Shown here one piece after another: positions 20,064 through 64,000 of a stretch of 64,000 bases of DNA. The stretch is from NCBI GenBank assembly GCA_025765595.1, contig JAIVFH010000074.1, positions 62,001 to 126,000 of the forward strand. The letters are read 5' to 3'. This DNA is from Obelidium mucronatum. Taxonomy: Eukaryota > Chytridiomycota > Chytridiomycetes > Chytridiales > Chytriomycetaceae. Positions within the stretch are counted from its first letter, which is position 1. The number at the start of each line of letters is the position of its first letter. A model generated the notes under the pieces. The model saw only the letters and a list, made by a program, of their open reading frames with translations, made no database searches and was not told the DNA's origin. The position numbers and the translations under genes were made by a program.

Positions 20064-23000
20064 ATGGCCACAGGTATCCACTTTCCAAGCACCCTTCTCC
20101 CTCTCGAATGATCCGATCTCATCTCTGTTACCTCCTTCCATCCAGCATCGTCCACGCCAACGACGTTCTGGTCCAGATTTAAGCCAAAAAACATTACAAG
20201 AGAAGATGCAATCGACTCAATCAAAAAAGCGATCCCCGTCGTCAAAACGGGTTTGGCATCGCTTGCAATGGTTCCTGTGCCCGGACTTGGCCCATGCATG
20301 ATGCTTGTCCATACGATCCTGTGCATGTACGAAAGGGAAGCTAACACATCAAAGACCATCACATCTCTCGGGGTTCTCGTTGCCAACGTGGGTGTATCTC
20401 TTGGCTTGCTTGTTAAGGCGGCGAATCCGGAGCTAGTGTCTCTGATTGAGGGACTTGAAGAGGTGTTGAACGACATCAATAAGTTGATGATCGAAGAAAC
20501 CAAGGCATTGAAGGACAAGGGGGCAGTAAACAGAGTTCTCACAGTCTTTACTAAAGCTGCTCAAGTTGAAGCGTCGATCATTTCTGTGAAGGAGAGACTG
20601 GCGCGTGCTGTTGGTGACCTGGACTTTAACCTGCAAGTCCGCAACTACAATACGATCCAGCAGATCAAGGATGATTTTACGTGTTCATTGTTAGTGATGG
20701 AGGATGGTTTTGCTGGACTGGCAGAACGAATTGAAAGTGGGAACGAAACCACAGCCAAGATTAAGGAACTTTTGGAAAACCAATCAGCACAACAAGCCGA
20801 GCCTCGGCCTAATGAATTCGAGTGTATGCTTTCCGGTAAACCTCGTTATTACGCTTTATAGTGATACGCTTTGCTTTTTCCACAGATTTGGGTCGCTTGA
20901 ATGATGACGGGGAAGTCGATGAACGGACAATCTTCAGTACAGTACTTACTGTTGCCTCCTGTACGTCAAGACGTTAAGGAATTCTACGAACCAAAGCTGG
21001 ATGGACATGATGGATTCATTCTAAAGCTCCGATATACCGACCACATCACCAAATGCGAGAAAGTGGCAGATCTCAACAAGAAACTTTTAGAGAAATACAT
21101 AGGATGCCAAGATACGACAGGAACAATGATTCTTATTGACAAGGTGAGCCTTGCTGTTGGAACCTCAATATTAAACATGGGTTTGTAGAATCAACCTGGA
21201 TTCGCGCCACTCAATAATACTGGCCACAAGAAGCTAGTCATCAATGAAGGAAACTCGACAGTAGTTGTTCGCGTGGATCCCGCCACTATTCATAGCTTTT
21301 CTGACGTCAAGAGTCTGGTACAGCAACGATGAGACACCCAATTTGCCCGACTTCCACTCTGATACAATTCCCTTAACAGGTCAGCGCCACATCGGATGTA
21401 AATCTTTCAGACGATTCAACTGTAGTATCAAGTTGTGGTGGCTCTTATTCGGTCTCTACGCTTCCATTCGCAATGAGTATGTCCAACGCCGATGGCGATG
21501 AGCATTTGGAAGTACATGTTCCTGTTGCATCCATTTCTGAAACCGAGAGTATCGCCCCAAGTGAACCACTGAACGTGGTTCCATGCACTGAACAAAAAGA
21601 GTTTGACGTTATGGTGTCTTACTGGTTTGTAAAAAAACGCTTCTGTCTCATTTTCTCCCAACTCTTACATGTTGTTTTATCTTATGACAGTTGGAAATCA
21701 TCCAAAGATCTCGTGGATACAGTTGTTTATGCTTTGCGTGCGGAAGGATTGACTGTTTGGTTTGATGAATCCGAAATGCACAACAATATTTTGGATAGAA
21801 TGGCTGAAGCTATTTGCAAGAGTAAAGTCTTTTGCATGTTTTTGAACGTGGAATATCAGGTATATGACTGTGTGTTGGAGTATTTTTTCTCGGTTTTTTT
21901 TTTAACTTGCTTTCCCCAAAATATAAAGGAATCATACAACTGCCAATTGGAATACGGGTTCGCAGCTGCGAAAAAGAAGCCCGTCGTAATTGCCAGAGAT
22001 ACCACCGGTGATTTGAAGGACGACGGCGCTGCGTTGCTGGCAGGCTGTAACCTATACTCAGACTTCAGCGGCCCCGACTTTGACACACCGTTCCAACTAC
22101 TTTACATGAACATCCGAAACGCCATCGCCACATCAACAGCAAACCATTCTGCCGTAGCAATCGCAGAAGCCCAGCAACAACAGCAGCAACAACAACAACC
22201 AGAATCAGGCGAACTTTTACGCGACTGGTTGAACCCCGTTGACTTCACAGACGACTTGACCCGCTTCCAAGAAGCCTATGTACCCCCCACGCGTCAATGG
22301 ATGCTGAAAAGCCTCCGCGAATGGATGAGCCAAGAGACTCAATCCGTGCTTGTCCTGTTTGGCGGCGCTGGGGTCGGGAAATCCGTCTTTGCATGGCTCG
22401 CGCAACACAACCCAGACACGTATATCGCACCAGCCTCCTTCTTCTGCAGACACAACAATGAACGCAAAAACAACGCCAAAAACGTTCTCTCAACACTCGC
22501 GTTCCAACTCGCAGAGTACTCTCAAGAGTTTGCAGCGTACCTGTATGAAGTACAGTGGAACGAAACGGCCCTACAGGAAGCGAATTCGGACATCATTCCC
22601 TTAGTGCAACGCGCGGATGCCTTCGAGACGTTGATCCTGGATGGACTTGCGTATATCCAAGTCCCTGAGGGGAAAAACTTGTTGTTGGTCGTGGACGCGC
22701 TGGATGAATGTGAAACTCCGGGTAGCTTGGGTCGCGCCAATTTGCTTTCGACAATCAAGGAGAATTACAAGAAGCTTCCGAAGGGGATCAAGCTTCTTGT
22801 CACGTCGCGGCCGGAAGAGGATATTGTGTCGGCGTTGGAGTCGATTCATCCGGATCAGATGTTGGTGCGCGAGCAGCAGTCGATTGATGATGTCTTGTTG
22901 TATTTGAATGTGAAGCTTGCAAAGATTTGTGAGGATGCTGGTGTGCCGTATGAGAAGGAGGTGAGAGACGCGGCTGCCTTGTTGGCGGATGCGAGTCAAG

Positions 23001-26000
23001 GAGTTTTTGTCTTTGCGGCGCTGGCTTGCAAGAGTTTGGCGGAAATGGATAACAGTAATTCGTCAATGTTTTTGGCCGAGTTGCTAACCAATATTGAAGC
23101 CTGGTGTGATGGAGGAGATATGGACGGAATTTATACGCCCTTTCTTCAGTCGCATTACGTTGATGCCACAACTCAAGATATTGCAATGTTCAAGGCTTGC
23201 ATGGGTGTCGTTACTGCTCTTTCCATCGGATTATCTTCCGAGTCAATCGCGTTGATTCTCAAGGTTCCTGTCTTCAGCGTCGACGCAGTAGTGCTGAGGG
23301 TAAGTTATGGCCCCCCTTTGAATTGTTGTTTTTTGGTTAACCCTTAAGCTGTTTTACCACCACCAGATCCGATCCATTCTCCACGTTGAAGGCGGCAAAA
23401 TCAGAGTCCTCCACAAGAGTGTCAAAGACTTTTTAACTTCCGCCAGATGCACAGACCTCCGTTTCCGAATCGGTCTCTCGGCCCCACATGATCTAATCTG
23501 TCGTCAATGCTTCGACCTTGTCCTTCTCTCCCCGGAAACGCCTGCCCCATCTGAACTGTACCGGTACACTATCGCGTACTGGACGCACCATCTTGCAAAC
23601 GGAAGTATCGGCAATCTAGACGACCACCTCCCACTACTCGAGCGACTCCTCGAAAACCAAGGCGCGTGTCTGATTACCTGGTTCAAGGCGCTGCTCCAAA
23701 CAAACACGCCTGCAACGACAACAGCGAAAAACAACATTTTCTCATACTTGGCCAAAGTCAAGAAATCAGAATCCCTAAAACCGACCGCAGAAAAGTGCGA
23801 AAAGGCACTGAATGTTGCGTTTCTGGTGTTTGGAGAAGTCTACAAGGAAGTATTGTGGGAAGGGCAGGTGGCCACGTTCCAGGACGTGTTGAAGGAGTTG
23901 AAGGTGGAAGAGCAGTTGGCCAAGGCGGAAGTCGCAGAGCTTTCGGAGTATGACTTTTATGTTTCGTTTGAGTTGAGTAGTTTACCGCTGTTTTTCTTCT
24001 TTTCTTTTCGTGTCTATGGTGGGAGAGTTTTTTTTTTTTAAACGTACTTTTTTTTCAGACTTGGCTCTGCAGACGCCGCCAAACAACTCTCCGACGGCCT
24101 CCGAAAAGCGGGCCACACCGTCGCCTTAATGTCGCACGCCAAAGAAAGCGCCGAACTCCTCAAAGACCAAAGCCGGATCCTCCAATCCACAGTCTTCCTC
24201 GTTCTCCTCACGGCCAAATACGAAGACTCCCGACAATGCCGCGCCAACTTTGATTACGCCAAGAGCAATGACAGGGGAATGTTTGGAATGTTTTTGGACC
24301 CGGAGAGTGTTGTTCGTGGAGACGCGTCGTGGTATTTGGAAAAGTAATGTGTTCTGTGTGTGTGATTTTTTTTTTCGGTGAAGTTATCGCAAATCTCAAC
24401 CCCCTCCTACTCTATCACATACACATAACACAGCTCATTCTGGACAACCGACACCCTATCCTCTGGAAAAGTCAAGAACGTCTTGGCCTTGTACAAAATC
24501 AAGGCAGAACTCAAGTTCGATACGTGGAAACGGTTCTGTGCTTGTATTGGAGATGGAATGTCGACGATCCGTGCAATGTAAGAAAAGAAAAAAAAGAGCT
24601 TTTAGAGTGTTTTTTTTTAACTAACAGGTTTTTTTTATTTTTATTTTTATTTTTATTCTATAAAGGAGTCTTGTGGGATACAAACTTGCTGGATCCGTTC
24701 CAAAGGAATTGAGTGGTCTCACTCAGTTGACTGCATTGTTGAGTAGCCCATATATTTTTTTTTTGTCCTTTTTCGGCATGTTATTTGTTTCATGTCGGTT
24801 AACCTTGTTTGTTTGTGGAAAAGATCTCTCGCTCGAAACAGATTAATTGGATCGATTCCATCTGAGCTTTGCAGTTTGACGCAATTGGCGCATTTGTAAG
24901 TTATTTTTCGTTTTTTTTTTGTCATGTTACTTGAAACTAAAACAGAAAAAAAAAACACAAAAAAAAAAAAAAAAAAAAAAAAAAAATAGAAACTTATCCG
25001 ATAACCAATTGACGGGAGAAATTCCGGGATCGATTGGAGAGCTGGTTCAATTGAAGATTTTGTGAGTACATTTTTTATTTATTTGAAAGGACTCGGTACT
25101 GATGTCATTTCTGTCATACAAAAAAAAAAAAAAAACACACACAGAGATTTATCCTTTAATCAATTGAGTGGAATGATTCCAAACGAGTTTGGGTGTTTGG
25201 TTGCACTCACTTCATTGTGAGTTGTGTTGTTGTTTTTTTATTTTCCTGTCTAATTTTTTTTGCCTTCTTGTTTGAAAAAAAAAGGGATCTTTCTCGGAAT
25301 CAATTGAGTGGTTCTATCCCAAAAGAAATTGGAAACCTCATCAAGTTGTCTACACTGTTGAGTGATATCTCTATTGTTTCACAGTTGTTTGTTATTGACT
25401 TGATAAAATCCAATCCCTTTTCTTGTGCCAAAAAAAAAAAACAGAGACTTGAATGGAAATAAACTAGACGGAGAGATCCCTGTAGAAATTGGACAACTTT
25501 CTGAATTGACTGTATTGTTGAGTACCAAAAAAAAATCTCAGTGTGCATAAAAACAAGTTTTAATTATATAATTTCAATAGAAACCTCGCAAAGAATGAAT
25601 TGACTGGAACGATACCAAAAGAAGTTGGGAATCTTGCAGTATTGACAAGACTGTGAGTGTTACAAAAAAAGACGATGAAGATGATGATGAGCCCATTAAA
25701 CACATTTTTCAGCGATCTGTCAAAGAATCAATTGACTGGAGCGATCCCAAAAGAGCTTGGTGGTTTACCAGAGTTGACAGACATTCGCGTCTCTTCCAAT
25801 GAATTGGCTGGAATCCTTCCACCTGAACTAGCAAACTTGTTGAAACTGACTTGGTTGAATGTGAGCGACAATGCAGGATTATTTGGCTCCCTTCCATCGT
25901 TCCCGAAATCTGCAATGTGAGTTTTTGATCAAAACAAACAAAAAATTAACAATTAAATGAACAATTAACTCTGTACCAATTGTATCATACCAGCTTATCA

Positions 26001-26048
26001 ATCGAGAAAACTGGAATCAAGAAACCATTATTCCAGAAAATGTTTTGA
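20064..26048 (+). CDS. NLR-like receptor 1: MLKL/HeLo-like + TIR + NACHT + TIR-like + LRR
   Basis: Nineteen exons: 20064-20073, 20146-20823, 20886-21143, 21189-21317, 21380-21624, 21691-21859, 21929-23299, 23367-23971, 24059-24343, 24434-24577, then LRR exons 24666-24737, 24824-24895, 24990-25061, 25145-25216, 25285-25356, 25445-25516, 25581-25652, 25713-25916 and 25994-26048; about 1,551 residues. Domains in order: helical N-terminal domain resembling MLKL/HeLo-type membrane-acting domains (about 20-195); a middle domain I do not recognise (230-350); TIR (about 430-540, FDVMVSY, VWFDESEMH, SYNCQLE); polyglutamine; NACHT (P-loop GGAGVGKS about 641, Walker B LLLVVDALDE about 747, sensor LVTSRPEED); the fungal NACHT-associated VLHKSVKDFL; second TIR-like domain (about 1148-1250, SRQCRAN, glutamate lost); then about nine plant-type LRRs. 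Inferred role: cytosolic signalling receptor that triggers cell death or NAD loss. One extra base near 20960 breaks the frame in exon 3; the paralogue at 52853 does not have it. Confidence 0.85.
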
Positions 26049-26160: not shown

Positions 26161-26525
26161 CACCGCCTTCGGCGGTGTGATGGCAAGAAAAGAAAAGAAA
26201 AAAAAGAAATCACCGCCTTCGGCGGTTTGATAAAAAAAAAGAAATCATAAAAAAAAAGAAATCACCGCCTTCGGCGGTATGATAAAAAAAAAAGAAATCA
26301 GGGCCTTCGGTGGATAAAAGAAAAGAAAAGAAACAAAAAGAAGTCACCGATAAAAGACAAGAATCACCGCCTTCGGCGGTATGATAATAAAAAAAGAAAT
26401 CAAATCACCGCCTTCGGCGGTATGATCCAAAAAAAAAAGAAATCACCGCCTTCGGCGGTATGATCAAAAAAAAAAAAAAAGAAATCACCGCCTTCGGCGG
26501 TATGACCACCGCCTTTGGCGGTGAT
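26161..26525 (-). repeat. palindromic hairpin repeats, inverted block upstream of the permease
   Basis: Eight or nine copies of the near-perfect palindrome ACCGCC-TTC-GGCGGT, each embedded in A-rich spacer with AGAAATC before and ATGAT after. Read on the minus strand this is the same unit as in permease intron 1 (ATCAT-ACCGCCGAAGGCGGT-GATTTCTTTT). The block lies between the NLR-like gene 1 stop and the permease start, about 110 bp after the former. Two copies are degenerate (about 26302 and 26507). Confidence 0.93.
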
Positions 26526-26660
26526 ATCAATACCAAGCCATACACAACACCATCTTTGATTACAAATTCATAGGGTTCAAATAACCTTAGCTAAGTCTCA
26601 ATTACTAAAAAAGAGCACTTGACCACAAAAACAAACAAAAAAAAAACACACTACAAAAAA

Positions 26661-28603
26661 ATGTCAACGTTCTTGACATCAACGAGCGCGGATGCACGCG
26701 CATCGTTTGTGATTGAGAACGCAGAAGGAGCAAATACGAATACGAATGCAAATACGAATAGAGTCGCAGCAACACCGACGATACCAGACGCCATCCACGT
26801 TGATCTTGTAATTGACTCTAGTGTTCCGCTGGAGGGAGAGTTTAACGGGTGGGGCCGCGTGTCTGTGTTGGCAGTAGACAGCTTGCGCGACAAGGAGTAT
26901 CCGCCGAATGGCCAACTTGAAAAGAAGCAGACGCTCTCTGAGGCAGCGGCGACAGCGATTGCGGCCAACGACATTGCGGGCAGCGTGCTGTACACGCTCG
27001 GCGTGACGACGCTCGCAGCCGGAAGACTCGCGCCGGTGTCGCTGGTGCTCGTGGCGCTGACGCTCGCGTTCCCGTTCCTCGGCGTCGTCGAAGAAGTCGG
27101 ACGCCGCGTGCCGCTCAACGGCGGCATCTACTCGTGCGCGCTGCTCGCCGCCGACGCCGGCCGCAGCCTCGCGAGCGTCGCCGCGTGCTGCTCGCTGCTC
27201 GCCTACATGGCGTCCGCCGTCGTCGCCGCCGCGTCCGCCGCCGCCTACTGCGCCTTCGAGTTTGCGCTCGCGCCTTCTCTCGAATACTGGGCCGCCGTCG
27301 CGCTGCTCGCCGTGTTTGGCCTGCTGACGCTCGCGGGCGTCAAGGAGTCGTCCGCCGTGAGCGTCGCCATCCTGGCCCTGCATCTGCTGACTATCGTGCT
27401 GGTCGCCGTCGCTGCCGTCGTGCAGCTGGCAAAGTCGGGGACGGCGATTGCGTACGCAAACTTTGTCGAGTCGCATTCAGAGCGCGGTTGGGCGATGGAT
27501 CTCTTTCTGGGCTACTGTGTCGGCATGCTCGGTGTCACGGGCTTTGAAAAGTCGGCAAACTACATTGAAGAGCAGAAGCCGGGTATTTCTCTTTTTTGAT
27601 CTTGTCTTCTTGTTGGGTCATACCGCCGAAGGCGGTGATTTCTTTTTTTTTTTTTGGATCATACCGCCGAAGGCGGTGATTTCTTTTTTGTTATCACACC
27701 GCCGAAGGCGGTGATTTCTTTTTTTTTATCACACCGCCGAAGGCGGTGATTTCTTTTTTTTTTTTGATCATACCGCCGAAGGCGGTGATTGCTTTTTTTT
27801 TCTATCATACCGCCGAAGGCGGTGATTTCTTTTTTTTATCACACCGCCGAAGGCGGTGATTTCTTTTTTTTTTTTGATCATACCGCCGAAGGCGGTGATT
27901 TCTTTTTTTTTTTTGATCATACCGCCGAAGGCGGTGATTGCTTTTTTTTTCTATCATACCGCCGAAGGCGGTGATTTCTTTTTTTTATCACACCGCCGAA
28001 GGCGGTGATTTCTTTTTTTTTTTTTGATCAAACCGCCGAAGGCGGTGATTTCTTTTTTTTTTTTGATCATACCGCCGAAGGCGGTGATTGCTTTTTTTTT
28101 CTATCATACCGCCGAAGGCGGTGATTTCTTTTTTTTATCACACCGCCGAAGGCGGTGATTTCTTTTTTTTTTTTTGATCAAACCGCCGAAGGCGGTGATT
28201 TTGTATTCATACTTACATACATACTTACATACATACATACAATAACAGGTGTATACCCAAAAACATTGCGAAACATGTGCATCTTGAGCTTTGTTTGTAA
28301 TCCAGTCTTGTCTGTCTTGTCTCTTTGCATCTTGCCTCTCTCTGCAATCAAGGAAAATTCTGGTGTCGTCATTTCTCTCATGGCGGACGCTTCTTTTGGG
28401 AAATGGCTTCGTGTTTTGGTGGCTATTGATGCTATTATTGTCCTTTGTGGTGGTATTCTTACTGCTTTTATTGGTGTCGCTGGTTTGATGGAAAGAATGA
28501 CGAGGGATAATTTGCTTCCTTGGTTTCTTTTGATTGGGTTCAAGAGGAAGAAGTTTGTGTATGTGTTCATACCGCCGAAGGCGGTTTTTGTACCACCGAA
28601 GGT

Positions 28604-28641
<38 letters not shown>

Positions 28642-31600
28642 ACCGCCGAAGGCGGTGACATACTGCCGAAGGCAGTTCTACCGCCGTAGGCGGTTCATAC
28701 CACCGAAGCTGGTGTATTTCTTTTTTTCTTTGCACCGCCGAAGGCGGTGATATACTGCCGAAGGCAGTTCTACCGCCGTAGGCGGTTCATACCACCGAAG
28801 GTGGTGTATTTCGATATGTCATCAACCGCCGAAGGCGGTATATCCTTCTTCTTTCCTTCTACTTCGACACCGCCGAAGGCGGTACATCTCTTTTATTTCC
28901 TTCTAATGCGACACCGCCAAAGGCGGTACATTTCTTTTCTTTCCTTCTACTACGACACCGCCGAAGGCGGTATATCATTCCTCCTACTACGCCACCGCCA
29001 AAAGCGGTACCTCTCTTTTTTTTCCTTCGACTTCGACACCGCCGAAGGCGGTATATTCCTTTTTCTTGGCACCGCCGCAGGCGGTATATCTCTTCTTTTC
29101 CTTCTACTCCATCACCGCCTTCGGCGGTATATCTCTTTTCTTTCCTTCTACTCCAACACCGCCGAAGGCGGTATATCATTCCTCCTACTACGCCACCGCC
29201 AAAAGCGGTACCTCTCTTTTTTTTCCTTCGACTTCGACACCGCCGAAGGCGGTATATTCCTTTTTCTTTGTACGTTGACGCACCGCCGCAGGCGGTATAT
29301 CTCTTCTTTTCCTTCTACTCCATCACCGCCTTCGGCGGTATATCTCTTTTCTTTCCTTCTACTCCAACACCGCCGAAGGCGGTATATCATTCCTCCTACT
29401 ACGCCACCGCCAAAAGCGGTACCTCTCTTTTTTTTCCTTCGACTTCGACACCGCCGAAGGCGGTATATTCCTTTTTCTTTGTACGTTGACGCACCGCCGC
29501 AGGCGGTATATCTCTTCTTTTCCTTCAACTCCATCACCGCCTTCGGCGGTATATCTCTTTTCTTTCCTTCTACTCCAACACCGCCGAAGGCGGTATATCA
29601 TTCCTCCTACTACGCCACCGCCAAAAGCGGTACCTCTCTTTTTTTTCCTTCGACTTCGACACCGCCGAAGGCGGTATATTCCTTTTTCTTTGTACGTTGA
29701 CGCACCGCCGCAGGCGGTATATCTCTTCTTTTCCTTCTACTCCATCACCGCCTTCGGCGGTATATCTCTTTTCTTTCCTTCTACTCCAACACCGCCGAAG
29801 GCGGTATATCATTCCTTCTACTACGCCACCGCCAAAGGCGGTACCTCTCTTTTTTTTCCTTCGACTTCGACACCGCCGAAGGCGGTATATCTCTTTTCAG
29901 TCCTTCTACTTCGACACCGCCGAAGGCGGTATATTCCTTTTTCTTTGTACGTTGACACACCGCCGCAGGCGGTATATCTTTTTTTTTACTTCTACTGCGC
30001 CACCGCCGCAGGCGGTATACGCACCGCCGAAGGCGGTATATCCTTTTTTTGTTCCTTCTACCTTGACACCGCCTTCGGCGGTATATCATTCCTTCTACTG
30101 CGCCACCGCCGAAGGCGGTACATCTCTTTTTCTTTCCTTCTACTTCAACACCGCCGAAGGCGGTATATCTCTTCTTTTCCTTCTACTCCAACACCGCCGA
30201 AGGCGGTATATCCACCTTTTATTCCTTCAACTTCGACACCGCCGAAGGCGGTATATTCCTTTTTCTTTGTACGTTGACGCACCGCCGCAGGCGGTATATC
30301 TCTTCTTTTCCTTCTACTCCATCACCGCCTTCGGCGGTATATCTCTTTTCTTTCCTTCTACTCCAACACCGCCGAAGGCGGTATATCATTCCTCCTACTA
30401 CGCCACCGCCAAAAGCGGTACCTCTCTTTTTTTTCCTTCGACTTCGACACCGCCGAAGGCGGTATATTCCTTTTTCTTGGCACCGCCGCAGGCGGTATAT
30501 CTCTTCTTTTCCTTCTACTCCATCACCGCCTTCGGCGGTATATCTCTTTTCTTTCCTTCTACTCCAACACCGCCGAAGGCGGTATATCATTCCTCCTACT
30601 ACGCCACCGCCAAAAGCGGTACCTCTCTTTTTTTTCCTTCGACTTCGACACCGCCGAAGGCGGTATATTCCTTTTTCTTTGTACGTTGACGCACCGCCGC
30701 AGGCGGTATATCTCTTCTTTTCCTTCTACTCCATCACCGCCTTCGGCGGTATATCTCTTTTCTTTCCTTCTACTCCAACACCGCCGAAGGCGGTATATCA
30801 TTCCTTCTACTACGCCACCGCCAAAGGCGGTACCTCTCTTTTTTTTCCTTCGACTTCGACACCGCCGAAGGCGGTATATCTCTTTTCAGTCCTTCTACTT
30901 CGACACCGCCGAAGGCGGTATATTCCTTTTTCTTTGTACGTTGACACACCGCCGCAGGCGGTATATCTTTTTTTTTACTTCTACTGCGCCACCGCCGCAG
31001 GCGGTATACGCACCGCCGAAGGCGGTATATCCTTTTTTTGTTCCTTCTACCTTGACACCGCCTTCGGCGGTATATCATTCCTTCTACTGCGCCACCGCCG
31101 AAGGCGGTACATCTCTTTTTCTTTCCTTCTACTTCAACACCGCCGAAGGCGGTATATCTCTTCTTTTCCTTCTACTCCAACACCGCCGAAGGCGGTATAT
31201 CCACCTTTTATTCCTTCAACTTCGACACCGCCGAAGGCGGTATATCGTTTTCATTCCTTCTACTTCGACACCGCCTTCGGCGGTATATCTCTTTTCTTTC
31301 CTTCTAGTGCAACACCGCCTTCGGCGGTATATCCTTTTTCGTTCCTTCTACCTTGACACCGCCTTCGGCGGTATATCATTCCTTCTACTACGCCACCGCC
31401 TTCGGCGGTACATCTCTTTTCTTTCCTTCTCCATCGATTCACACCACTCAATGCAAAATCATTGAAGTACTCCATCCATTAACCACAAATCATTCAACAG
31501 ACAACAACAACCAAATCAACCAAATCAACCAAATCAATACATGAGCCGCCCTGCATCTTCAGCATCTACAATCCAATTCAATGATATCGAACTCACCCGA

Positions 31601-52852: not shown

Positions 52853-55800
52853 ATGTTGAGATCAAACACCAGTAAGAGACCCGTTGCGAGCCATTGTTGA
52901 TAAATTGCTTACATGCTCTCTCAAAACACATACAGCAGCGTCGCTTCTCTCACGGCTGCAGCCACAAACCATTCCGAAAGATGCCGCAATCAACATCATC
53001 AAACGATCGCTTCCGCATATCCAAGCAGGGATGGAAACAATGAGAGACCTTGCTACTCAGTCGAGCATCCCAGGCATTGAAGCCATCTTTACGCTGTGCA
53101 TTGCAATCCTGTCTTATTACAACAAGGAGTCTAAAACCTCTGAAACCATTACATCTCTCGGCGTCCTCATTGCAAACATTGCCAACTCCCTAACGCTTTT
53201 GATCCGGAACCCAGCCTTGGAGCCCCTAGTGGTTGGCCTCGAACACGTGTTAAATGAAGTCAAAACTGTCATTGAAGAGGAGCAAAAAGCACTGCAAGAA
53301 AAAGGATTCCACAAAGTCCTCCACGTTTTCACCAAAGCCGAAAAGGTGGAAAAGAAGGTGGTGGAGTATCATCAGCAGCTGGTGCGTGCTCGCAATGATT
53401 TGGATTTCAGGATCCAGGTTCAAACACACAACTCGATCGAGCAAATTGCAGAGAGCTTTATTCTGCAGCGAGTTACTGTGGAGGATGGGTTTGCGGGTTT
53501 GGCGGAACGGATTGGGACTGGGAATGAGAAGATTATGACTTTGCTGGCGGAGATTTTGGAGACGCAGGTGACGCATGCTGTTCAACCGCCTTCAGGAGTA
53601 TATGAATGTAAATATTCTTTTACCTTTTTTTGTTTGGTGTGGTCGGCTGGTTTGACTCCTTTGTTTTTAAGACTTGGGGAGTTTGATGGAATTGGACGGA
53701 CAAGTAGATGAACGACCGATCCTCAGCAAAAGTCTTACTGTTACATCAATACGAAAAGATATTCAAGAGTCTTATGACCCCAAGCTGAATGACTTTGATG
53801 GTTTCACGTTGAAGCTCAAATATACTGATAAAAAGACCAATCGCGAAAGAATCGTTGACGTTAATCCGAAAATGCTGGAAACATGCATCGGTTCAGGAAT
53901 ATATGATGATGTTGTGATGTTGATTGAACGAGTAAGTTTTTTTCGACCTTTAATCTGCGACAGTTTTTTTTTTTTTCATTGTCATTTCTTGATAGAATCC
54001 AGCTGGAGTCGTGCCATTCGACCATGGGGAACAAAAACCGAAATTGGTTATCAGCGAAGGGGATTCTTCGGTTGTCGTTTCCGTGGATTCATCTTTTGCC
54101 CACAGCTTCACTGAATTGCAATCCGCTGTTGAGTGTTCAGATATTCTCATTTATGAACCATTTCACACAACTAAGCCTTTCCAAAAAAAACAGGTGAATT
54201 CAATGACAGATATTCATATTACGACAGAGTCCACTGTGGTTACTGAAGGCACAAACTTTTCTGCCCCAGCACTTATTGTCGCCTTGAACTCGGCGACTTC
54301 GACGGACCAGCGAATCGAAGTCAATGTCCTTCATTCAGTCCCTTCTATTCAGGAAATACATTCTGATGCCGTTGAGCCACTTCAACCCGTCTCTTATTCT
54401 GATGTTCTTGAGTATGATGTCATGATTTCGTTTTGGTAAGATACGACTATTCATTAGACGGCGTTTTATTTTTTAACGCTTTATCAGCGGGCAGTCTTCG
54501 AAAGATTTGGTAAACCTCGTTGTCGAAGAACTGCGCGCAAGAGGTCTTGTTGTGTGGTTTGATGAAGATGAAAGGCGCAACGATATGCTGAATCGGATGG
54601 CAGAGGCAGTAACGAAAAGCCATGTGTTTTGCATGTTTTTGAATCCAGAGTATCAAGTTGAGAGCGCGTTTTTCTTAACTCCTTTTTCTTCTTCTGAGCT
54701 TTTCTTAATTTCCTTTCACTAGCAATCTTATTACTGCCAACTGGAGTACGGATATGCAGCGGCCAAACATAAACCAATTGTTATTGCGTTGGATAGCTTG
54801 GGAGAGCTGAAACCTGATGCTATGGTTGTGAAATTGGCCGACTCAACTCAGTCAAGTGAATGTCCAGATTTCACCAGTGAATTTTACGATGCAATTGATC
54901 TCTTACATAGCAACATCCTTACTGCTTTGGAAACCGCCCCTTTCGAGATCATTTCTAGAAAATCGACTGTGAATGAGGCAATCGATTCTGGAAACGTTTT
55001 ACATGATTGGTTGAACCCAGTTGACTTTTCAGACGACTTGAAACGCTTCGAGGAAGCATATGTGCCACCCACAAGACAATGGATGCTTAAAAATCTTGTC
55101 GATTGGATAAATCGAGACTCTCAGTCTGTGTTATGTCTTCTTGGAGGGGCGGGTGTCGGGAAGTCGGTGTTTGCTTGGTTGGCACATCACAATCCGCAGG
55201 AATACGACTGCCCAGCAATTTTCTTCTGTCGACACAATAGTGAACGGAAGAACAATGCCAAGAATGTTGTTTCCTCACTTGCATATCAGCTTGCTTTATA
55301 TTCTCCTGAATATGCGGCCTACTTGTTTGAAGTCCAGTGGATGGAGGCTGCGGAGGAAGCGAGCAACCCGGATATGATTCCTGTAACTCAACGTGGAGAT
55401 GCGTTCAAAAAATTGATTCTTGATGGTCTTCACCATATACGAGTACCTGAGGGAAGGAACTTGCTTGTTATTGTAGATGCTCTGGACGAATGCGAGAAAC
55501 CCGGCAGCTTGGGACGGATGAATCTGTTATTGACAATCAAGGACTACCACAAATCGCTGCCAAAGGGAATGAAGCTTCTGGTTACATCCCGTCCTGAAGA
55601 AGATATAGTCATTGCGTTGGAATCGATTCAACCAGATCAAATGTTGATTCAACAGCAGCAAGCGATACGTGATGTGTTTTTCTACTTGGAAGTCAAGTTT
55701 ACAAAAATGTGTGCCGACGCGAAAATGTTCTTCAGTTTGGATATGCGAGATGCCGCTGCAAGACTGGCTGATGCCAGTCAAGGTGTGTTTGTCTTTGCCG

Positions 55801-58691
55801 CACTGGCCTGCAATCAGCTATCAGAAGTTGATACCCAGGACCGTAACGGATTCAAAAAAGAATTTTTGGAAATGGTGGCGACCTTGTGCGAGGGCGGAGG
55901 AAATATGGATAGTATCTACGTTCCCTTTCTGGAAATGCATTACAAAGATGCGGGACCACAGGACTTTTCAATGTTCAAGTCTTTTATGGGTGTTGTTACG
56001 GCACTGTCGATTGCTTTGACGGGAGAATCAGTTGCACTTATTTTGAAGGTACCAAGCTATATGGTTGATGCAATTGTCTTAAGGGTACGTCAAACGCAGC
56101 TTTAGAAATAAGATTGTTAAATGTGCTTTTCAGATTGGATCGATTCTGCATGCTCCAGATGGCAGAATCCGTGTTCTTCATAAAAGTGTCAAAGATTTCC
56201 TTACCACACGTTGTGTGGATCCCCGGTTTGGATTTAGCATCAAAAAATACCACGACTTGATCACCGCACAATGCTTTAAACTGGTTCTACTTTCTTCGGA
56301 ATACGATAACCCCGAACTACGAGACTACGCCAATTCTTACTGGACATACCATTTGGCAAGTGGGAATGGAAACCACGATCATCTGGAAAATTTGAAGCTA
56401 CTCGTCGAAGGCGACTGCTACCATTTGATTTCATGGTTTCAGGCGCTTCTGAGATCGAATCAACGCGTAGTAACCATTCAAAGCCATATTATGGGATATT
56501 TGGCAAAAATCAAGGAGTTCGAAACCCTTAAAGCGGAAGCCAATAGATTAGAGAGGATTTTTCAGTTGACTTTTTCTGTTTTTGGAGACACTTTTCGAGT
56601 TTCAGAGTGGGATTCTCTGGTTGACAAATTCCTAATGGACCTGTTCACGGTTCTTGAGGATGCCGCAGCAGCCGTAGATGGCGAGGATGTTGAGGAGGAG
56701 ACTTATGATTTTTACATTTCCTTCGAGTTAAGTTTTGCTATGCCTTCGGCCATTTTCCTGATAGTTCCTTTCAGAGCTTCGTCTGCCGACACAGCGTTGA
56801 GTCTATTGATGACCTTGGAAAGCGAAGGGCATCGCGCTTGTCTCATGAATCACGCACCCGATCAAGTCGCTGCAGCCAAAGATCAATCCCGTATTTTGAA
56901 TTCCACAGTTTACCTTGTTCTTGTAACTCAAAAGTACGAAGACTCCAAGCAATGCCGTTTGGACTTTGCATACGCGAAATCTTATGATCGCGGAATGCTC
57001 GGAGTGTTTTTGGAACCGGAACTTGGAGTTCGCGGCGATGCGTCCACTTGCTTGCGAAGGTACTGTTGGCGGCCAGACTAAACGCTTTTTCGTGGGAACT
57101 CATTTATTTATTTTTTCACACACAGAGAATTTTGGACAATGAGTTCCCTGGATCCTAAAGATTTCGAACACATTCCACTGCTGTTCAAATTGAAGTATGG
57201 GTTCCATTTTGCTTCTTGGGAGCAATTTCGTATGGGAATCGATCATTCCATGAAACGCAGTGCCATTAACAGAGGGTTCAATGACTCGATTGACATGATT
57301 GCAGGAACGAATCGATATAAGGAATTGTAAGAATTTATCTTGAAAAAGTCTTATCCGTGTTGTAGGTTAAACCAATCATATTGTCAGATTCACCTCTAAT
57401 CGTGTCGATTTAAGCGAAGATGCAACAGCCAAATATATTGGAAGGCTGACTCAATTAAATTGGCTGTGAGGACACACACCTTGGATTGTTTAAAGTTTGC
57501 TTCACTGAAACACGGTTTGTATTAGCGATTTAAGAGAATTCGGTTTGAAGGGGGCCATTCCAAGCGAGATTGGAAGTTTGTCCGAGTTGACGAGATTGTA
57601 AGTATTCTACTGGTTTGTTTGACTATCCGCACTGAAATCGCGCAATTGCGTTTTCTATCAGGGATCTGGCTCATAATGAGTTGATTGGTTCGATTCCTGG
57701 AGAGCTTGGGGCACTCAAACAGCTGAATTGGATGTAAGTAATACTCTACTTCGTCAAATATTTCATGGGTTTATCTTATAAATATTCTTGCCTAATAATC
57801 AGGTTTCTTTCTGGAAATATGCTTGGAGGGCCGATTCCTAGCGAATTGGGAAATCTTGCTAATTTGACAGTGGCTGTAAGAAATTTTAGATAAATATTAA
57901 TTATGCGCCACTCACAGGAAAGATAGGGATTTGTCTTTTTGTCAATTGAGTGGTGCAATTCCGAGCTCTCTGGGAAACCTTTCACAACTCTTACAACTGT
58001 GAGGCAACGATCATTCAACATTGTTTTACTGAATTGAAACCATGTACTACAGTAACTTATCGTATAATAAGCTCAGTGGGGAAATCCCCGTTGAGCTGGC
58101 AAACTTATCAAAGTTGACTAAACTGTATGTTTCCTGGATCCGTTCGTCATGCTTGCTCACGAAAAACTTTGTTTCATAGCAAATTGGACAACAATCAACT
58201 GACTGGAAGCATTCCAAAAGAATTTGGTCGTTTGTCCCGTCTAAGTCAAATGTGTGTTATCGATATGGAAATTAGGACAAAACATCTGATGTTGACTGTA
58301 CAGGAACCTATCTTTCAACAACCTCACAGGCACGATTCCGATTGAGTTCGGAAGCTTAACTGGGCTTGTTCGATTGTATGTATCTATGCGAATTTAATAG
58401 TCAAGAACTAAACTGTTTTCCAGGAAACTCACACACAATCAATTGAGTGGAATAGTGCCCAACGAATTAAAGCGAATCAGAGATTTATCTCACTTGTAAG
58501 CTGTTTGTCTTTTTTAATATGTGCTCGGTTGACCGGGTTTTCTGCTCTGTTATGATTACAGGTGGTTGGAAGGGAATTCCGAGCTTTTTGGCCCTCTCCC
58601 CAATATATCCTTTGGCGTTGATGTCAAAATCGGAGATACGAAAATAACACCAAGGCCGTCAATTTTTCGAACCATCTTTAGGAACAGTTAA
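52853..58691 (+). CDS. NLR-like receptor 2: MLKL/HeLo-like + TIR + NACHT + TIR-like + LRR
   Basis: Twenty exons: 52853-52871, 52936-53607, 53672-53931, 53996-54127, 54194-54435, 54488-54656, 54723-56084, 56134-56726, 56775-57059, 57126-57326, 57388-57465, then LRR exons 57526-57597, 57662-57733, 57803-57875, 57927-57998, 58053-58124, 58180-58251, 58304-58375, 58424-58495 and 58562-58691; about 1,572 residues. It is a paralogue of the gene at 20064, with matching exon boundaries and phases through exon 9 and the LRR exons. TIR marks are YDVMISF, VVWFDEDERRND and SYYCQLE. NACHT marks are GGAGVGKS, LLVIVDALDE and LVTSRPEED; VLHKSVKDFL follows. The second TIR-like domain reads YDFYISFE ... SKQCRLD, with Asp where Glu is expected. 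About eight full LRRs plus partial end repeats follow. The fourth LRR exon is 73 nt, with one extra G at about 57872, breaking the frame. The intron at 54128-54193 is in frame and is called by analogy with gene 1. Confidence 0.86.
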
Positions 58692-58764
58692 TTTGACCCT
58701 TTGGCCTGGTCAAAGCAGTTGAAAATAATACAATAAAAACCAACTGAATTAAACATCATTCGGC

Positions 58765-59925
58765 ATGGGCCTGGACACGCCTTCGCCGCCAAACCTAAAT
58801 GAAGCTTATGCGGTCCACTTTTTGGTGGCGTATCTACTGGCAGTTGTGCTAGTGGCACTGACAGGCACCATTCTTGCCGAAACTACAACCCTCCTCTTCA
58901 GAGCGAGAAAAAAGCTGGCAGTCCCAAGAGCAGCACACGAGACCTTGCCGGTAACAGAAAACAAGAAGTCAGAAGAAGCGCAGCTTTTGGACGCGTGCGA
59001 AAAGCGACTGTCTGTGTTGGAATACGAAGTGAAGAATCTGAAGGGACTGATTCCTCTGCCTGCCAGTCACCTGCCGCCACTGCCAACTTCCATTTCTGTT
59101 TCAGAAAAGAGTGTCTCGCTTAGTGATGAGAGTGTCGTTGCTGCACCTGTATTAGCGCCAGTCCCGCCCCCTCCTCCTCCTCCTCCTCCTCCTCCACCGC
59201 CTCCTCCTCTCGCCCCTACGCTGTTTGCCACACAAATTCCAAAGCCGGTTTCTACAAAGAGCCAAATTGCTCCAGTCGAGAACGAACAAAACTCAATGTC
59301 AAATGTTCTGCAGGAGCTTTCCCGTAAAGTCAAGAAAATGCAACAAGTCGCGGCAGAAAAAAATCCATCGACAAAAAGGTGCGTGAAACCTTTCAGTTTT
59401 GACTTGAAGCTTTAAACTCTTTGCTGATTGGGTTTTCATCAGGTCTCCACGATCTGCCTACTTGACAGAAAAAAGTGCATCGCCTGCGTCGACACGCGCG
59501 ATAGCCCATTCACATCTCCGGTACTCGATGATGGATGACGAAAGAGAAGAAGAAGAATCTTCTCAATCGGACTTTGGCTCTGAGAATGACGAAAACACAA
59601 CCCAACATCCTCCATCTGACTTGTTTAACGTGAAACCACCGTGGACCAAGCGCTCTTCCTCACGCATAGCAGGCATTCATGGTCCATCTAATCTCCCCGA
59701 GCCTGTGAAGCAACCGCTAGCTTCAAATGTAAAACAAAACGTGATTCCCGTAGAATTGTAAGTGCTTTATTCACAGTCATTTCCCACTCGCTTTTCTCCT
59801 AACGGGATAATAACAGGCCCAACCCGAAGTCTCTAATCAAGGAGATTCCTAGCATTCGCTTGAGGCGGACTCTTATCCCTCGGACACCCGGCGGAACTCC
59901 CCAAGACAGAATGCTGAAAAAATGA
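58765..59925 (+). CDS. membrane-anchored polyproline protein of unknown function
   Basis: Three exons: 58765-59378, 59443-59757 and 59817-59925 (345 residues). One transmembrane segment lies near the N terminus (FLVAYLLAVVLVALTGTIL). A predicted coiled coil follows (LLDACEKRLSVLEYEVKNLK), then a run of about 15 prolines, then a second helical stretch (VLQELSRKVKKMQQ). An acidic segment (DDEREEEESSQSD) and a C-terminal basic motif (SIRLRRTLIPRTPGGTPQ) close the protein. The Pro run could bind profilin or SH3/WW domains, so a link between membrane and actin is possible, but no known family was recognised. The start is the first ATG and sits just after the NLR-like gene 2 stop (73 bp). Confidence 0.7.
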
Positions 59926-60270
59926 GACTCTCTCAGCCAATCCAATAAAATTATGCGTTTGATCGATTGTCAGGTGATAGGACTCGAAAATGTTCTTGGC
60001 TTGAGCTTGGCTTGAGCCTGTGCCACCCGGACTACTCCAATAAATATTGAAAACAAAAGAAGCAATTCTGGAATTTGAAGAAAACTGACAGCTAAATTAT
60101 AATTGTCACGGAGCGATGCTATCCAGTTAGGTGGGTGGGTGGGGACTTGCTTTGTCAGCGAAAATTCCTTTGGCAGTCACAGGGGAAGTCACAGGGTCTC
60201 ATAAGCCCGCGAATCCCTTCAAAAAGATCAGGTCTTGCTTCCCACTTGCCTTCAATTGAAACCCAGAAAA

Positions 60271-62521
60271 ATGAAAGCTGGATCGATTGTGTCCGCCGTT
60301 CTGATGGCGCTTGCTGCTGTCGGTGTCAATGCCAGAGCCGTTGGTCCTGATGGAAAGATCCTTGTTGCCTATTTGCCTTACTGGGACGGTATCAGAGCTT
60401 CGTACATGGACTTCAGCAAAGTCACCCATGTCAACTATGGTTAGAAAACACAGTTGATTCAGTTGATCTGTCCATCAATGCACTAATCCTTACTGCCCCA
60501 TATAGCTTTTGCCAATATTGACTCTACTGGAGCCGTGACTCTTCCTGCTGCTGATACCTCCATCATTACCAACTTTGCCGCCGACTGTCATGCCGGAGAC
60601 GCCAAGGCGATTGTCTCGATCGGAGGATGGGGAATCCAACCCTTCTCCACAGCATTTGCCAGTGCCGCTGGAATCAACACTTTTGTCTCCACCGTCAGCG
60701 CTTTGATGACAAAGTACAACTTGGACGGTATCGACATTGACTGGGAATACCCTGGTGAACAAGGCGCCTGCCAGAACCCATGGAGCACTGCTGATACTGC
60801 GAACTTCTTGACTGCATTGAAGGCTCTACGTGCTGCTATTCCAGGAAAGCTGATTACTGCTGCCCCACCTGCGTACCCATGGAAAGACGCGACTGGACAG
60901 CCATCCAAGGATCTTTCTGCTTACGCGCAAATCTTTGACTTTGTGAATTTGATGGTAAGGTGTTTTGATGCATGCGATGTCATACAACTAAACGCGTTCG
61001 CCAGGCTTACGATCTCAACGGTATCTGGGGAACTCACACTGGGGCCAGTGCTCCATTGATCCAGGATGTTGGAAACCTCGGAACCCCAGGCGGTAACGTT
61101 CGTGATGCCGTCAAGTCCTGGCTCGCTGCTGGATTCCCGGCCAGCAAGCTTGCGCTTGGTACTCCCTTCTATGGACACTACATGAGCCCAGTCTCTCCAA
61201 TGACCAACAACAAGGACTCTGACATCAACGTTCCTGTCATCAAGGGATCTACTGGTCACGATTGTGCTGGAGCTGGTCTCGGTGGGACTTTCACCTTCGT
61301 CCAGGTCTACCCATACACTCAAGACACCACTGGTGAATGGATCAAGCACTTTGATACCTGGACCCAGACCCCATGGTTGTACAACCCAAAGACCAACATT
61401 TTCATCAGTTACGATGACTCCAGATCGATTGCTATTAAGGCTGCTTACGCTGCGTGCATGGGTTTGAAGGGAGTCATGACTTGGTAAGTTTTCGTGACGT
61501 TCTCTCTGATTTCTAGTTTGGTTGCGTTGTATTCATTGGGTTTTATGTGCACAGGGAGGCCACTATTGACGGTGGCGCTTTGATGCCGGCTCTTTCCACC
61601 TTCTTCACTGCCGCAGCTGGATCTCCAGGTGTTGACTGTGTTGCCCAAGTTGCCAGCATCACCTCTGTCCCACAACCATCCCCAACGAACATTGGTCCAG
61701 CTCCATCTGACCTTACCACACGTTGTGGTTCTTCTTGGGCTGATGCAAACACCAACTGCTACGCCATGTGTTCCTCCAACGCACAATGTGGTGTTGGTCA
61801 AAACTGCTACAACGCCTTAAACGCGTGCTCCAGCGTATGTGTTCGTCTATTCGGAGATATGTGGGAATCTTTTTACTCACCATAATTTATGCAGAACCAA
61901 CACCCAGGACCTGGTGAATGTTTCCTCCCATGGGTTGCCTCTTATACGTACAGTGCTGGAGTCGAGGTATCCTACAATGGACAGAACTGGAAGGCTTCAT
62001 ACTACTTGAACCCAGGAACTGTACCAGGATCTGGTACCAACGGATGGGTTTCTACTGGTGCCTGCTCCACTGGTGGTTCAAGCTCCAAGACCACGACCAC
62101 CACAACCACAACCACGGCCAAGCCAACTACATCAACCACTACCACAACTACTACAAAACCAACTACATCCACCACTACAACGACCACCACGAAACCGACC
62201 ACCTCCACCACCACAACTACTACAACAAAACCAACTACATCGACTACCACGACGACAACAACCAAGCCAGTTACATCATCAACGACCATCACGACTACCA
62301 AATCAACTACTACTACTACAAAGCCAACGACATCCACGAAAACCACCACTACGACTACCACAACAACCAAAAAGGCCAGTACCACAACTGCGGCAGGTAC
62401 TAATGTTGTTAATGGAGCACCTTGCGCCACTTTTGGAGCATGGGCGTGCTCAAACGCATGTATTTGTAACTATGCAACTGCTGGCCTTGTCTGGCAATGT
62501 ACTGGTGTCAGTGGCTGCTGA
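60271..62521 (+). CDS. secreted GH18 chitinase with CBM5/12-like chitin-binding module
   Basis: Five exons: 60271-60439, 60506-60954, 61005-61483, 61555-61834 and 61895-62521 (667 residues). It hydrolyses chitin outside the cell or in the wall. A signal peptide (MKAGSIVSAVLMALAAVGVNA) leads into a GH18 barrel. The barrel has SIGGWG and the catalytic DGIDIDWEYPGE; its last Glu is the proton donor. Later barrel strands include FDFVNLMAYDL, TPFYGHY and GVMTWEATIDG. After the barrel come a Cys-rich segment and a CBM5/12-like module with the aromatic residues WVASYTYSAGVEVSYNGQNWKA split around the repeat Y/W positions and ending GWVSTGAC. A Thr-rich linker of about 95 residues and a small Cys-rich C-terminal domain (WACSNACICNY) follow. 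All phases agree. The protein may serve wall remodelling or feeding on chitinous matter. Confidence 0.95.
62090..62385 (+). repeat. tandem coding repeat, Thr-rich chitinase linker
   Basis: Repeats of about 45 bp encode units of the form TTTTTTKPTTST. Four or five units are recognisable, followed by shorter degenerate ones. Such linkers are heavily O-glycosylated in fungi and vary in length between strains by slippage. Confidence 0.85.
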
Positions 62522-63644
62522 TTTTGCGTGATTTTTTTTAGTGTTACCAACATCAGGAAACAGCAGGAATGCATGCGCATAGATATAAGCATATATTCGT
62601 GTATTCAAATGTATTCAAATGTCTGGTATGTGCTACACCTGACCCCCCCCAGTTTGGCGCACATGCCAAATGTGAAACATGTGCTAAAATGTGCGTCATA
62701 TACAGGAAATGTATGTGTGGAATGCTGAACTCCTGTACAATATTCCAAGAATATGAGATGCATTTTTCAAATTCCTTATGTAAGTGAGAGGCAAAAGGTT
62801 TCCTTACCTCATGGGTCTGCCAACCATGAGGTACCTGCTGTAACTGATCGCAGCTGGGAACCGAACCTGGTGCCTCTGGATTGCTAGGCTTCATCATTAC
62901 CAACTACGCTCATTGACGCATCTTCTTTAACACTTCTTGCTGGAGGACTTATCAGTTTCTAATATTCAATTCCAATTTGTCGTTTGCACTTTTGCAACAG
63001 TACTGGCCTTTACCTAAGGCTAATCAAAAGGAAACCGTGTGCTTTATCTTGGAACCTATGTTTGGTTCAATTATTGTGCCAGTGTTTTCCATCGGGGAAG
63101 ATGGACAAAAAGGCAGTACTACTGCCTTGTGGAAAGGGTTTATTTGAGCCCATAGGCTGAAAAGTACGCTGACTCTGTCATAGAAGATTAAAAGTTGTGA
63201 TAAATTTAGTATGCAAATAAATGAGAACATATTTGAAAGAAACAGATATGGGCAATGTCAAATGTATTTAGAATGCTGAAGTTACAGCTTTATATATGTG
63301 GTAAATGTGGCATTCATTTTGGATCTATTTTGTCTCTATTCGGAATATGCGCTATATCCCAACCATACGACACCATACATTCATTCAATTTGAAATGGAT
63401 CATCAATACATGTCGACTGTATTCCTTTGATTTCAAATGTTGGGTATTCATCTGCATGTATTCAAATACAAGTGGAATTCAAGAAATGTATGTTTACTCT
63501 ACAGCCAGTTTCCAGATGAACAGTAAACTAGTTGAAATAAAGGAAACCATCTATGTATGATTGATGATGTTAGGCTCCTGAGGTTACTTTGTATGTTTAT
63601 GGAGTGAAGGGGTAAACAACTTACCATTTTTTCTCCGTTTTGAA
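62522..63644. other. gene-poor region between chitinase and ABC transporter
   Basis: About 1.1 kb without a coding exon. It holds a C8 run at about 62643, a tRNA-like segment at 62843-62914, and AT-rich sequence with several copies of ATTCAAATG-type words (about 62599, 62609, 63435 and 63463). Confidence 0.5.
62843..62914 (-). ncRNA. tRNA-like sequence, probably a tRNA-derived SINE relic
   Basis: On the minus strand the segment has an A-box-like GAGCGTAGTTGGTAATG. About 35 bases later comes a B-box-like GGTTCGGTTCC, which is tRNA spacing for a Pol III internal promoter. The T-arm does not pair perfectly and no clean acceptor stem was found, so a working tRNA gene is unlikely. Confidence 0.35.
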
Positions 63645-64000
63645 ATGGACTTCATTGTTGCTGATCATGAGCAAGTTGTTGGACAACCACCGGGAACTCT
63701 CTTGGATACCACTTTCCCCGTAACAGTCGAAGCAAAGAACTTGTACGTCAAAGTACGTGGCAGGAAGAAGGAGGAACGTGCTATCCTCAATGATATCTCT
63801 TTGAATGTGCCTGCTGGCAAACTCATGGCTATAATGGTAAGCCGCTGAGGATATATGGAGCACCCCCTTTTAATGCCGTTTTTTGATCAGGGCAGCTCTG
63901 GCAGCGGCAAAACTACGCTGTTGAATGCATTGGCCGGTCGGGCAAAGGGCATCACTGGGCAAATCACTTTCAACGGCCAGAATCAAGAAAAGTTCCTCAA
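63645..64000 (+). CDS. ABCG-type ABC transporter, 5' part only
   Basis: Exon 1 is 63645-63836 and exon 2 starts at 63891 and runs off the window. The start reads MDFIVADHEQVV, then VTVEAKNLYVKVRG and AILNDISLNVPAGKLMAIM. The intron falls just before the Walker A motif GSSGSGKTTLLNALAGRA, then GQITFNGQ. The nucleotide-binding domain comes first, with little before it, which is the order of ABCG half-transporters (lipid or drug exporters). The rest of the protein, including the membrane domain, is outside the window. Confidence 0.9.

Follow-up and report, generated by a model that had tools for sequence, protein, structure and literature searches.

Does any fungus combine a NACHT domain with a sensor of leucine-rich repeats (LRRs) in one receptor? 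The question is raised by a gene on the forward strand at positions 20064 to 26048 of a 64-kb stretch of DNA from the chytrid Obelidium mucronatum (hereafter the window; bases 62001-126000 of contig C74, which has 177,016 bases in a genome assembly of 48.3 Mb and 694 contigs). The passages quoted here from surveys of fungal nucleotide-binding oligomerization domain (NOD)-like receptors (NLRs) answer in the negative: Soanes and Talbot 2010 examined 49 fungal genomes and report no combination of LRR and NACHT (PMC2939053), Dyrka 2014 states for 5,616 fungal NLR candidates that 'no LRR motifs were found' (PMC4986451), and a 2025 review gives no LRRs as identified and the nucleotide-binding site (NBS)-LRR architecture as apparently absent from the analysed fungi (PMC12881547). 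A 2025 survey of 122 proteomes (ten chytrid), in which LRR profiles were included, gives NLR counts for chytrid species that go down to a single one and leaves the repeats unnamed in its main passages, and an LRR case may be in its supplementary tables. No account of a fungal NACHT-LRR protein was found among the open-access papers listed by literature searches.

Judged from sequence, the focal gene and its relatives represent a recurrent NACHT-LRR architecture in Fungi that carries an active-looking and a dead TIR domain in one chain, the first that we could find. The first-pass annotation of the gene had proposed that no described fungal protein has this domain order and that it suggests a new class of receptor; the former agrees with the survey passages, which contain no LRR-bearing fungal NLR, and the latter is too strong, a new architecture within the signal transduction ATPases with numerous domains (STAND)/NLR receptors being the better description.

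Gene model, domains and relatives

The gene extends from an ATG at 20064 to a TGA at 26048, and both its limits and its number of exons (19) agree with the first-pass annotation. Exons 1 to 10 are at 20064-20073, 20146-20823, 20938 (or 20886)-21143, 21189-21317, 21380-21624, 21691-21859, 21929-23299, 23367-23971, 24059-24343 and 24434-24577, and exons 11 to 19 are at 24666-24737, 24824-24895, 24990-25061, 25145-25216, 25285-25356, 25445-25516, 25581-25652, 25713-25916 and 25994-26048. The 19 exons form a single open frame of 1534 residues, and the introns are all GT-AG and 45-114 bases long. Exons 11 to 17 are each exactly 72 nt, in phase 2, and code for one 24-residue repeat apiece. A database protein of O. 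mucronatum, BDR26DRAFT_652645, matches at 98% identity.

The domain order is a helical domain, a linker region, TIR1, NACHT, TIR2, about nine GxIP-type LRRs and a cap. Thirteen Pfam families match the focal protein at E<=1, including LRR_1 (1.4e-28), NPHP3_N (1.4e-24), LRR_8 (1.7e-23), TIR_2 (6.8e-21, in two stretches) and NACHT (4.7e-6; 27.0 bits, with a cut-off of 26.7), and after residue 1290 the matches are to LRR families only, with no ANK, TPR or WD40. The proposal of a TIR, a NACHT, a second TIR and plant-type LRRs in a single chain is thus borne out by the 19 GT-AG exons, their one frame and the Pfam matches, which include both the TIR and the LRR folds. The helical domain occupies exon 2 (20146..20823) and is followed by a region (20938..21590) with a pattern of strands and helices (predicted local distance difference test score [pLDDT] under 45), which the structure model suggests is perhaps two small beta-grasp (strand-strand-helix) units. 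TIR1 (21602..22100, with introns at 21625-21690 and 21860-21928) matches Pfam TIR_2 at residues 418-535 and has its catalytic-type Glu codon at 21950-21952. NACHT/NPHP3_N (22289..22825, residues 600-778) has the intact Walker A (GGAGVGKS, 22361-22384) and Walker B (LLLVVDALDE, 22679-22708) motifs that had been noted at the outset. TIR2 and its linker (23946..24577) contain introns at 23972-24058 and 24344-24433, and the Glu of the TIR1 motif is replaced by Asn. The LRR array (24666..25916) has seven single-exon repeats and two more in exon 18, which also codes for part of the cap, so that the expected number of about nine holds; the last intron and exon 19 (25917..26048) complete a C-terminal cap that resembles those of the paralogues.

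The start of exon 3 is uncertain. A splice-aware alignment with a Siphonaria protein, P0003, as the query gives the same intron borders from the exon 2 donor to the exon 10 acceptor, except that exon 3 begins at 20886, and it requires frame changes near 20963 and at the extreme end, in exon 10, where the P0003 tail differs. The other haplotype and the relatives use an acceptor equivalent to 20886 in a single frame, and the alternative acceptor at 20938 keeps the frame in the window copy.

The architecture recurs elsewhere in the genome in whole or in part. A second family gene in the window, win2 (52932..58679, forward strand, first coding exon not located), lies about 27 kb from the focal gene and has the same domain order and one-LRR exons; the order also recurs on contig C70. 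By tblastn and spliced alignment, identity is 51% for win2 and 47% for C70. Once the exon borders had been checked by hand, the win2 frame stays open from its helical domain as far as the third LRR exon, and that of C70 for 1369 residues, which begin in the helical domain and take in five full 72-nt LRR units. Contig C278 (34 kb; L027, L043, L044 and L028) is colinear with window positions 16816-54833 at about 95-97%, save for a repeat-rich, apparently rearranged middle, and contig C442 (L030) is colinear with 54535-64000 at 98%. Because of this colinearity the two contigs are probably a second haplotype, and the assembly seems to hold both, which makes allelic tests of selection possible. The full domain order is present in the C278a copy, and it is partial in C278b (helical domain to TIR1, cut by the end of the contig) and in C442 (TIR1 to LRR, cut). 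As a separate observation, the middle of the colinear region, around 33-40 kb, looks rearranged between the haplotypes.

Relatives are also present in Siphonaria sp. JEL0065, which like Obelidium belongs to the Chytriomycetaceae (49 and 53% identical along the aligned stretch; win2 and P0003 are 71% identical over the NACHT part). P0002 is organized as kinase, TIR, NACHT, TIR2 and LRR, and P0003 as helical domain, TIR, NACHT and TIR2, after which it ends. The tail of P0002 is duplicated, perhaps through an error of assembly. Further protein searches gave no new fungal family member; one of them was swamped by LRR proteins, and both this one and the search that gave the Siphonaria relatives scored only 8000 candidates, so a restriction of the family to Obelidium and Siphonaria is not implied.

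Output domains and the LRR face

The two TIR domains differ at the position expected to matter for catalysis. The motif S-x-x-C-x-x-E reported for the first TIR is present as SYNCQLE, and the second TIR is degenerate there, as had been noted, with SRQCRAN. The Glu is kept in TIR1 of four of the five family members, the focal protein included, and in none of the five TIR2s, where the residues are N, D, N, D and I; this suggests that the Glu matters in TIR1. A TIR1 profile matches the solved TIR domains of Cat1 (E 6.6e-7), RPP1 (0.0024), SARM1 (0.0037) and AbTIR (0.0076), with weak matches to RPS4, L6 and RUN1 (E 0.04-0.8). The TIR1 Glu aligns opposite the Glu of the RPP1 WCLDE motif, which we take to be the catalytic Glu, and TIR1 is a putative, active-looking NADase. 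TIR2 has no match to PDB sequences at E<=10, and its identity comes from Pfam and from comparison with TIR1: taken singly, all five TIR2s match Pfam TIR_2 at E<=1 (best 2.3e-6; the focal domain scores 27.5 bits with a cut-off of 28), the win2 TIR2 exceeds the cut-off of Pfam TIR (23.8 bits; cut-off 21.3), and hhalign aligns TIR2 with TIR1 at 96.3% probability (E 1.6e-9), with the TIR1 Glu opposite the Asn of the focal TIR2.

The N-terminal domain had been called helical and MLKL/HeLo-like, and the first term fares better than the second. Its 220 residues are mostly helical in an AlphaFold2 (AF2) model of low confidence (pLDDT 49.6). At E<=10 the focal domain matches a single Pfam family, MLKL_N, and far below the cut-off (14.4 bits; cut-off 27; E 0.027), and two of four family members have such sub-threshold matches (E 0.025-0.027); a Foldseek search with the same low-confidence model gave no matches at E<=0.001. 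A likeness to MLKL is therefore a weak lead only. Other comparisons did not bear out an MLKL/HeLo identity: a PDB profile search returned designed and unrelated helical proteins, and hhalign comparisons with the N termini of 17 fungal NACHT proteins (single sequences each) gave probabilities of <=1.2%.

In the LRR fold the concave residues contact ligands, and the repeats of C70 are varied at these residues. Its LRRs are coded by a tandem unit of 133 bp (L029, 5569-7049; 11.2 copies, 84%), which in all full units but one consists of a 72-nt exon and an intron of 60-61 nt. The diversity calculation takes in every one of the 11 full 72-nt units, leaves out the 69-nt first unit and the cap, and counts as concave the five positions that the xxLxLxx motif defines. 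Non-synonymous diversity (piN) is 0.473 at the concave positions and 0.059 in the rest of the repeat, and intron diversity is 0.149, giving a concave-to-intron ratio of 3.2 (95% bootstrap over units, 2.4-4.4); in an exact permutation of positions only 4 of 33649 five-position choices equal or exceed the concave set. Within the family arrays of C70, the focal gene and win2, in which the test was made, the C70 pattern suggests a diversifying recognition surface, of which it is the expected trace. It also resembles the pattern that the passages quoted describe for repeats in other NLRs of fungi (PMC4986451).

We favour, with a probability of about two in three, an intracellular STAND/NLR-type recognition receptor of a small chytrid family whose members are built of a helical domain, TIR1, NACHT, a winged-helix and helical part, pseudo-TIR2, LRR array and cap. 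By analogy with known receptors, the LRR array would bind a ligand, either foreign or altered self, and binding would release the NACHT ATPase for nucleotide exchange and oligomerization. This would bring TIR1 domains together to cleave nicotinamide adenine dinucleotide (NAD+) or to make an NAD-derived signal, with the death of the cell or a defence response as the outcome. In this scheme TIR2 would act as a scaffold or brake for TIR1, and the helical domain as a second output or an assembly module. The intracellular location, ligand binding, oligomerization, NADase activity and biological role are all presumed by this scheme, and the proposed role in immunity or self-recognition gains indirect support from the paralogue on C70, in which the binding face of the LRRs has diversified.

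Alternatives to a recognition receptor

A number of observations weigh against a receptor of this kind, and they are given here beside the rival explanations. An unlikely alternative, but one that retains some force, is that TIR1 is an adaptor that does not cleave NAD+ and that the output comes from the helical domain acting on membranes, as for HeLo, MLKL or RPW8. TIR1 of Siphonaria P0002 lacks the catalytic-type Glu. P0002 also has a kinase at its N terminus, so the N-terminal slot looks exchangeable for effectors, and the sub-threshold MLKL_N matches in two of four members point the same way. Two more points weigh against the favoured reading: TIR1 has no clear BB-loop Gly by eye, and the AF2 models are poor (pLDDT 49.6 for the helical domain and 41.8 for the annotated protein P0001, from three sequences). 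Against an adaptor stand the retention of the Glu in four of five TIR1s with its loss from all five TIR2s, and the lack of a significant fold match for the helical domain.

It is rather unlikely that the family is a set of decaying pseudogenes, or a STAND scaffold (for signalling or the cytoskeleton, for example) that takes no part in recognition. Such a reading is favoured by the frame differences that several copies carry: the window copy has a one-base difference in exon 3, which read as in the relatives (20886..21143, forward strand) is free of it in C278a, win2 and C278b; win2 has one, absent from C442, in an LRR exon near 57873; C278b has two in TIR1; C278a has seven with respect to the model, the one in exon 3 stemming from the model's shorter exon 3; and C442 has one with respect to win2. 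The differences may be assembly errors or decayed alleles, which are indistinguishable from these sequences, and they look like assembly errors since they are scattered, copy-specific and of single bases beside strong constraint. A non-receptor role also draws on the richness of the Obelidium genome in LRR arrays of uncharacterised role. The diversity evidence has its own weak points: the concave codons of C70 have elevated synonymous diversity (piS) too (0.381), so that piN/piS there is only about 1.2, and the concave set is only mildly enriched in the focal and win2 repeats (486 and 745 of 33649 choices), which have diverged more among themselves than the C70 units.

Decay is opposed by the allelic comparison. 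Across 1527 codons the focal gene and C278a differ by 58.5 synonymous and 24.5 non-synonymous changes, a ratio of non-synonymous to synonymous rates (dN/dS) of 0.119 (binomial P 1.2e-20), and the LRR part has 14 and 5 (dN/dS 0.105, P 5.8e-6). By part, the ratio is 0.22 in the helical domain, 0.17 in the region before TIR1, 0.09 in TIR1, 0.07 in NACHT and the winged helix, 0.42 in the linker after the winged helix (five changes) and 0.28 in TIR2 (two changes), and for win2 it is 0.15 against C278b and 0.14 against C442, the latter resting on three changes. There is strong purifying selection between the haplotype copies, LRR exons included, and the neutral expectation is excluded. Moreover, at the frame difference of the window copy the other haplotype keeps its frame, and C70 combines its long open frame with a diversified concave face.

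A wrong join, in which the LRR exons belong to another gene or to no gene and the true gene is TIR-NACHT-TIR, is improbable. In its favour, the focal model, with its LRR join, was built from DNA alone; P0003 stops after TIR2; and the annotated P0001 (1193 aa) departs from the model, beginning at 20901, ending ahead of the last LRRs, omitting exon 15 and dropping 45 nt of exon 7. The omission of LRR exon 15 (25285-25356) preserves the frame because the LRR exons are symmetric, and could be either alternative splicing or a prediction error. P0003 terminates with YKDL and a stop; at this point win2 reads YKEL, and a GTAAG donor comes immediately after it (TTGTAAG where the exon ends). The P0003 end thus looks like donor read-through, and its lack of LRRs may well reflect a missed intron. 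The same order with in-frame phase-2 joins is found in the focal gene, win2 and C70, P0002 joins TIR2 to LRRs, and the paralogues have a similar C-terminal cap. Between haplotypes, 87 of 4604 aligned exon bases differ (plus 9 indel bases) compared with 132 of 1323 in introns (plus 159 indel bases), and LRR exons 11-19 have 20 mismatches in 763 bases and no indel compared with 97 of 570 and 124 indel bases in the LRR introns. Conservation of these exons beside diverged introns backs the modelled exon limits across the LRR array independently of transcripts, and the exons are constrained about as much as the rest of the gene. The view of the locus as one gene rather than several is sustained by this constraint and by the repetition of the order in two paralogues and, in part, in P0002.

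Contaminating DNA from another eukaryote is very improbable: both Siphonaria records are labelled UNVERIFIED_CONTAM, but the gene is on a 177-kb Obelidium contig with a second-haplotype partner, its relatives are in another genus of the same family, and its NACHT is closest, among the tree rows, to the NACHT proteins encoded elsewhere in the Obelidium genome.

Origin and relation to known systems

A tree of 31 of 32 NACHT regions (midpoint root, no animal or plant NLRs; C567 was dropped, having 86 residues with a limit of 180) places the LRR-bearing members and P0003 in one clade (100/100). The nearest neighbours are from the same genome, C84 (TIR-NACHT), C13 (TIR-NACHT-WD40) and C61 (NACHT-ankyrin, on a long branch), with 97/91 for all nine rows, and ANK and WD40 thus accompany other NACHT genes of Obelidium. 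We infer a single gain of the LRRs, ahead of the divergence of Obelidium and Siphonaria, and growth of the array by tandem duplication of the exon and intron unit.

A search of the Obelidium genome with the plant-type GxIP array gave at least 220 matches (150 of 555 candidates scored, the family included), nearly all listed without an internal stop and the best in long uninterrupted frames, a large repertoire. With such a stock in long frames, the chytrid itself may have been the source from which the family took its LRRs, which were then amplified with the intron. We incline slightly to the fuller proposal that this is a fungal NOD-LRR receptor made independently of those of plants and animals, in which a single plant-type LRR exon was captured by a chytrid TIR-NACHT lineage and amplified as an exon and intron unit, the ligand face is diversifying in at least one paralogue, a catalytic TIR is paired with a pseudo-TIR regulator, and symmetric 72-nt exons would let splicing vary the number of repeats.

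The family shares features with four known groups. Like the fungal NLRs with NACHT or NB-ARC and ANK, TPR or WD40 repeats, for example HET-E/HNWD of Podospora, it has a central NACHT/NPHP3_N, a variable N-terminal effector and diversifying C-terminal repeats of variable number, a behaviour that the passages quoted describe for WD40, ANK and TPR repeats (PMC4986451, PMC9815663). It differs from those NLRs in having LRRs rather than WD40, ANK or TPR repeats, a second TIR without the catalytic Glu between the NACHT part and the repeats, and one repeat per exon; the HET domain of HNWD is absent from the focal N terminus and from the 13 Pfam families at E<=1. Like plant TIR-NBS-LRR proteins (TNLs), it joins a TIR, a nucleotide switch and LRRs in one chain, and the TIR1 profile match to RPP1 fits this likeness. 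It has NACHT in place of NB-ARC (absent among the same 13 families), two TIRs, an extra N-terminal domain and regular GxIP repeats, which in plants belong to surface receptors and not to TNLs. Animal NLRs likewise have NACHT followed by an LRR sensor, but their LRRs are of a different class, the outputs here are TIR domains rather than CARD or PYD, and the nearest NACHT domains are the chytrid's own, in a tree without animal NLRs. With SARM1 and bacterial TIR NADases the family shares the TIR1 profile matches, in a different domain context and with TIR1 activity putative.

If the reading as a NACHT-LRR family is right, it would overturn for one early-branching lineage the statement, as worded in the passages quoted, that fungal NLRs have no LRRs (PMC4986451, PMC12881547, PMC2939053). 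It would also provide a further case for whether NOD-LRR receptors arose repeatedly. Obelidium mucronatum, presumably free-living, would offer a fungus for tests of non-self recognition through LRRs, of TIR signalling and of a pseudo-TIR that is part of the receptor itself.

Adjacent frames of the other Obelidium NACHT genes (L033, L036, L038 and L031) give TIR-NACHT-WD40 for C13 and NACHT-ankyrin for C61 and C567. C84, whose haplotype partner is C319, has TIR-NACHT and a further TIR frame downstream, with no repeats in the frames scanned.

The tRNA scan and the Rfam scan (gathering scores) of the 64-kb window were empty. Directly downstream of the focal gene, at 26162-31409, are arrays containing 69 exact copies of a 15-bp hairpin, ACCGCCGAAGGCGGT, on both strands (0 expected from 100 shuffles). 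A hairpin repeat of like kind is seemingly present beside another NACHT locus (L037), judged from a translated read-out, and ACCGCCGAAGGCGGT is possibly a mobile or structural repeat of the Obelidium genome.

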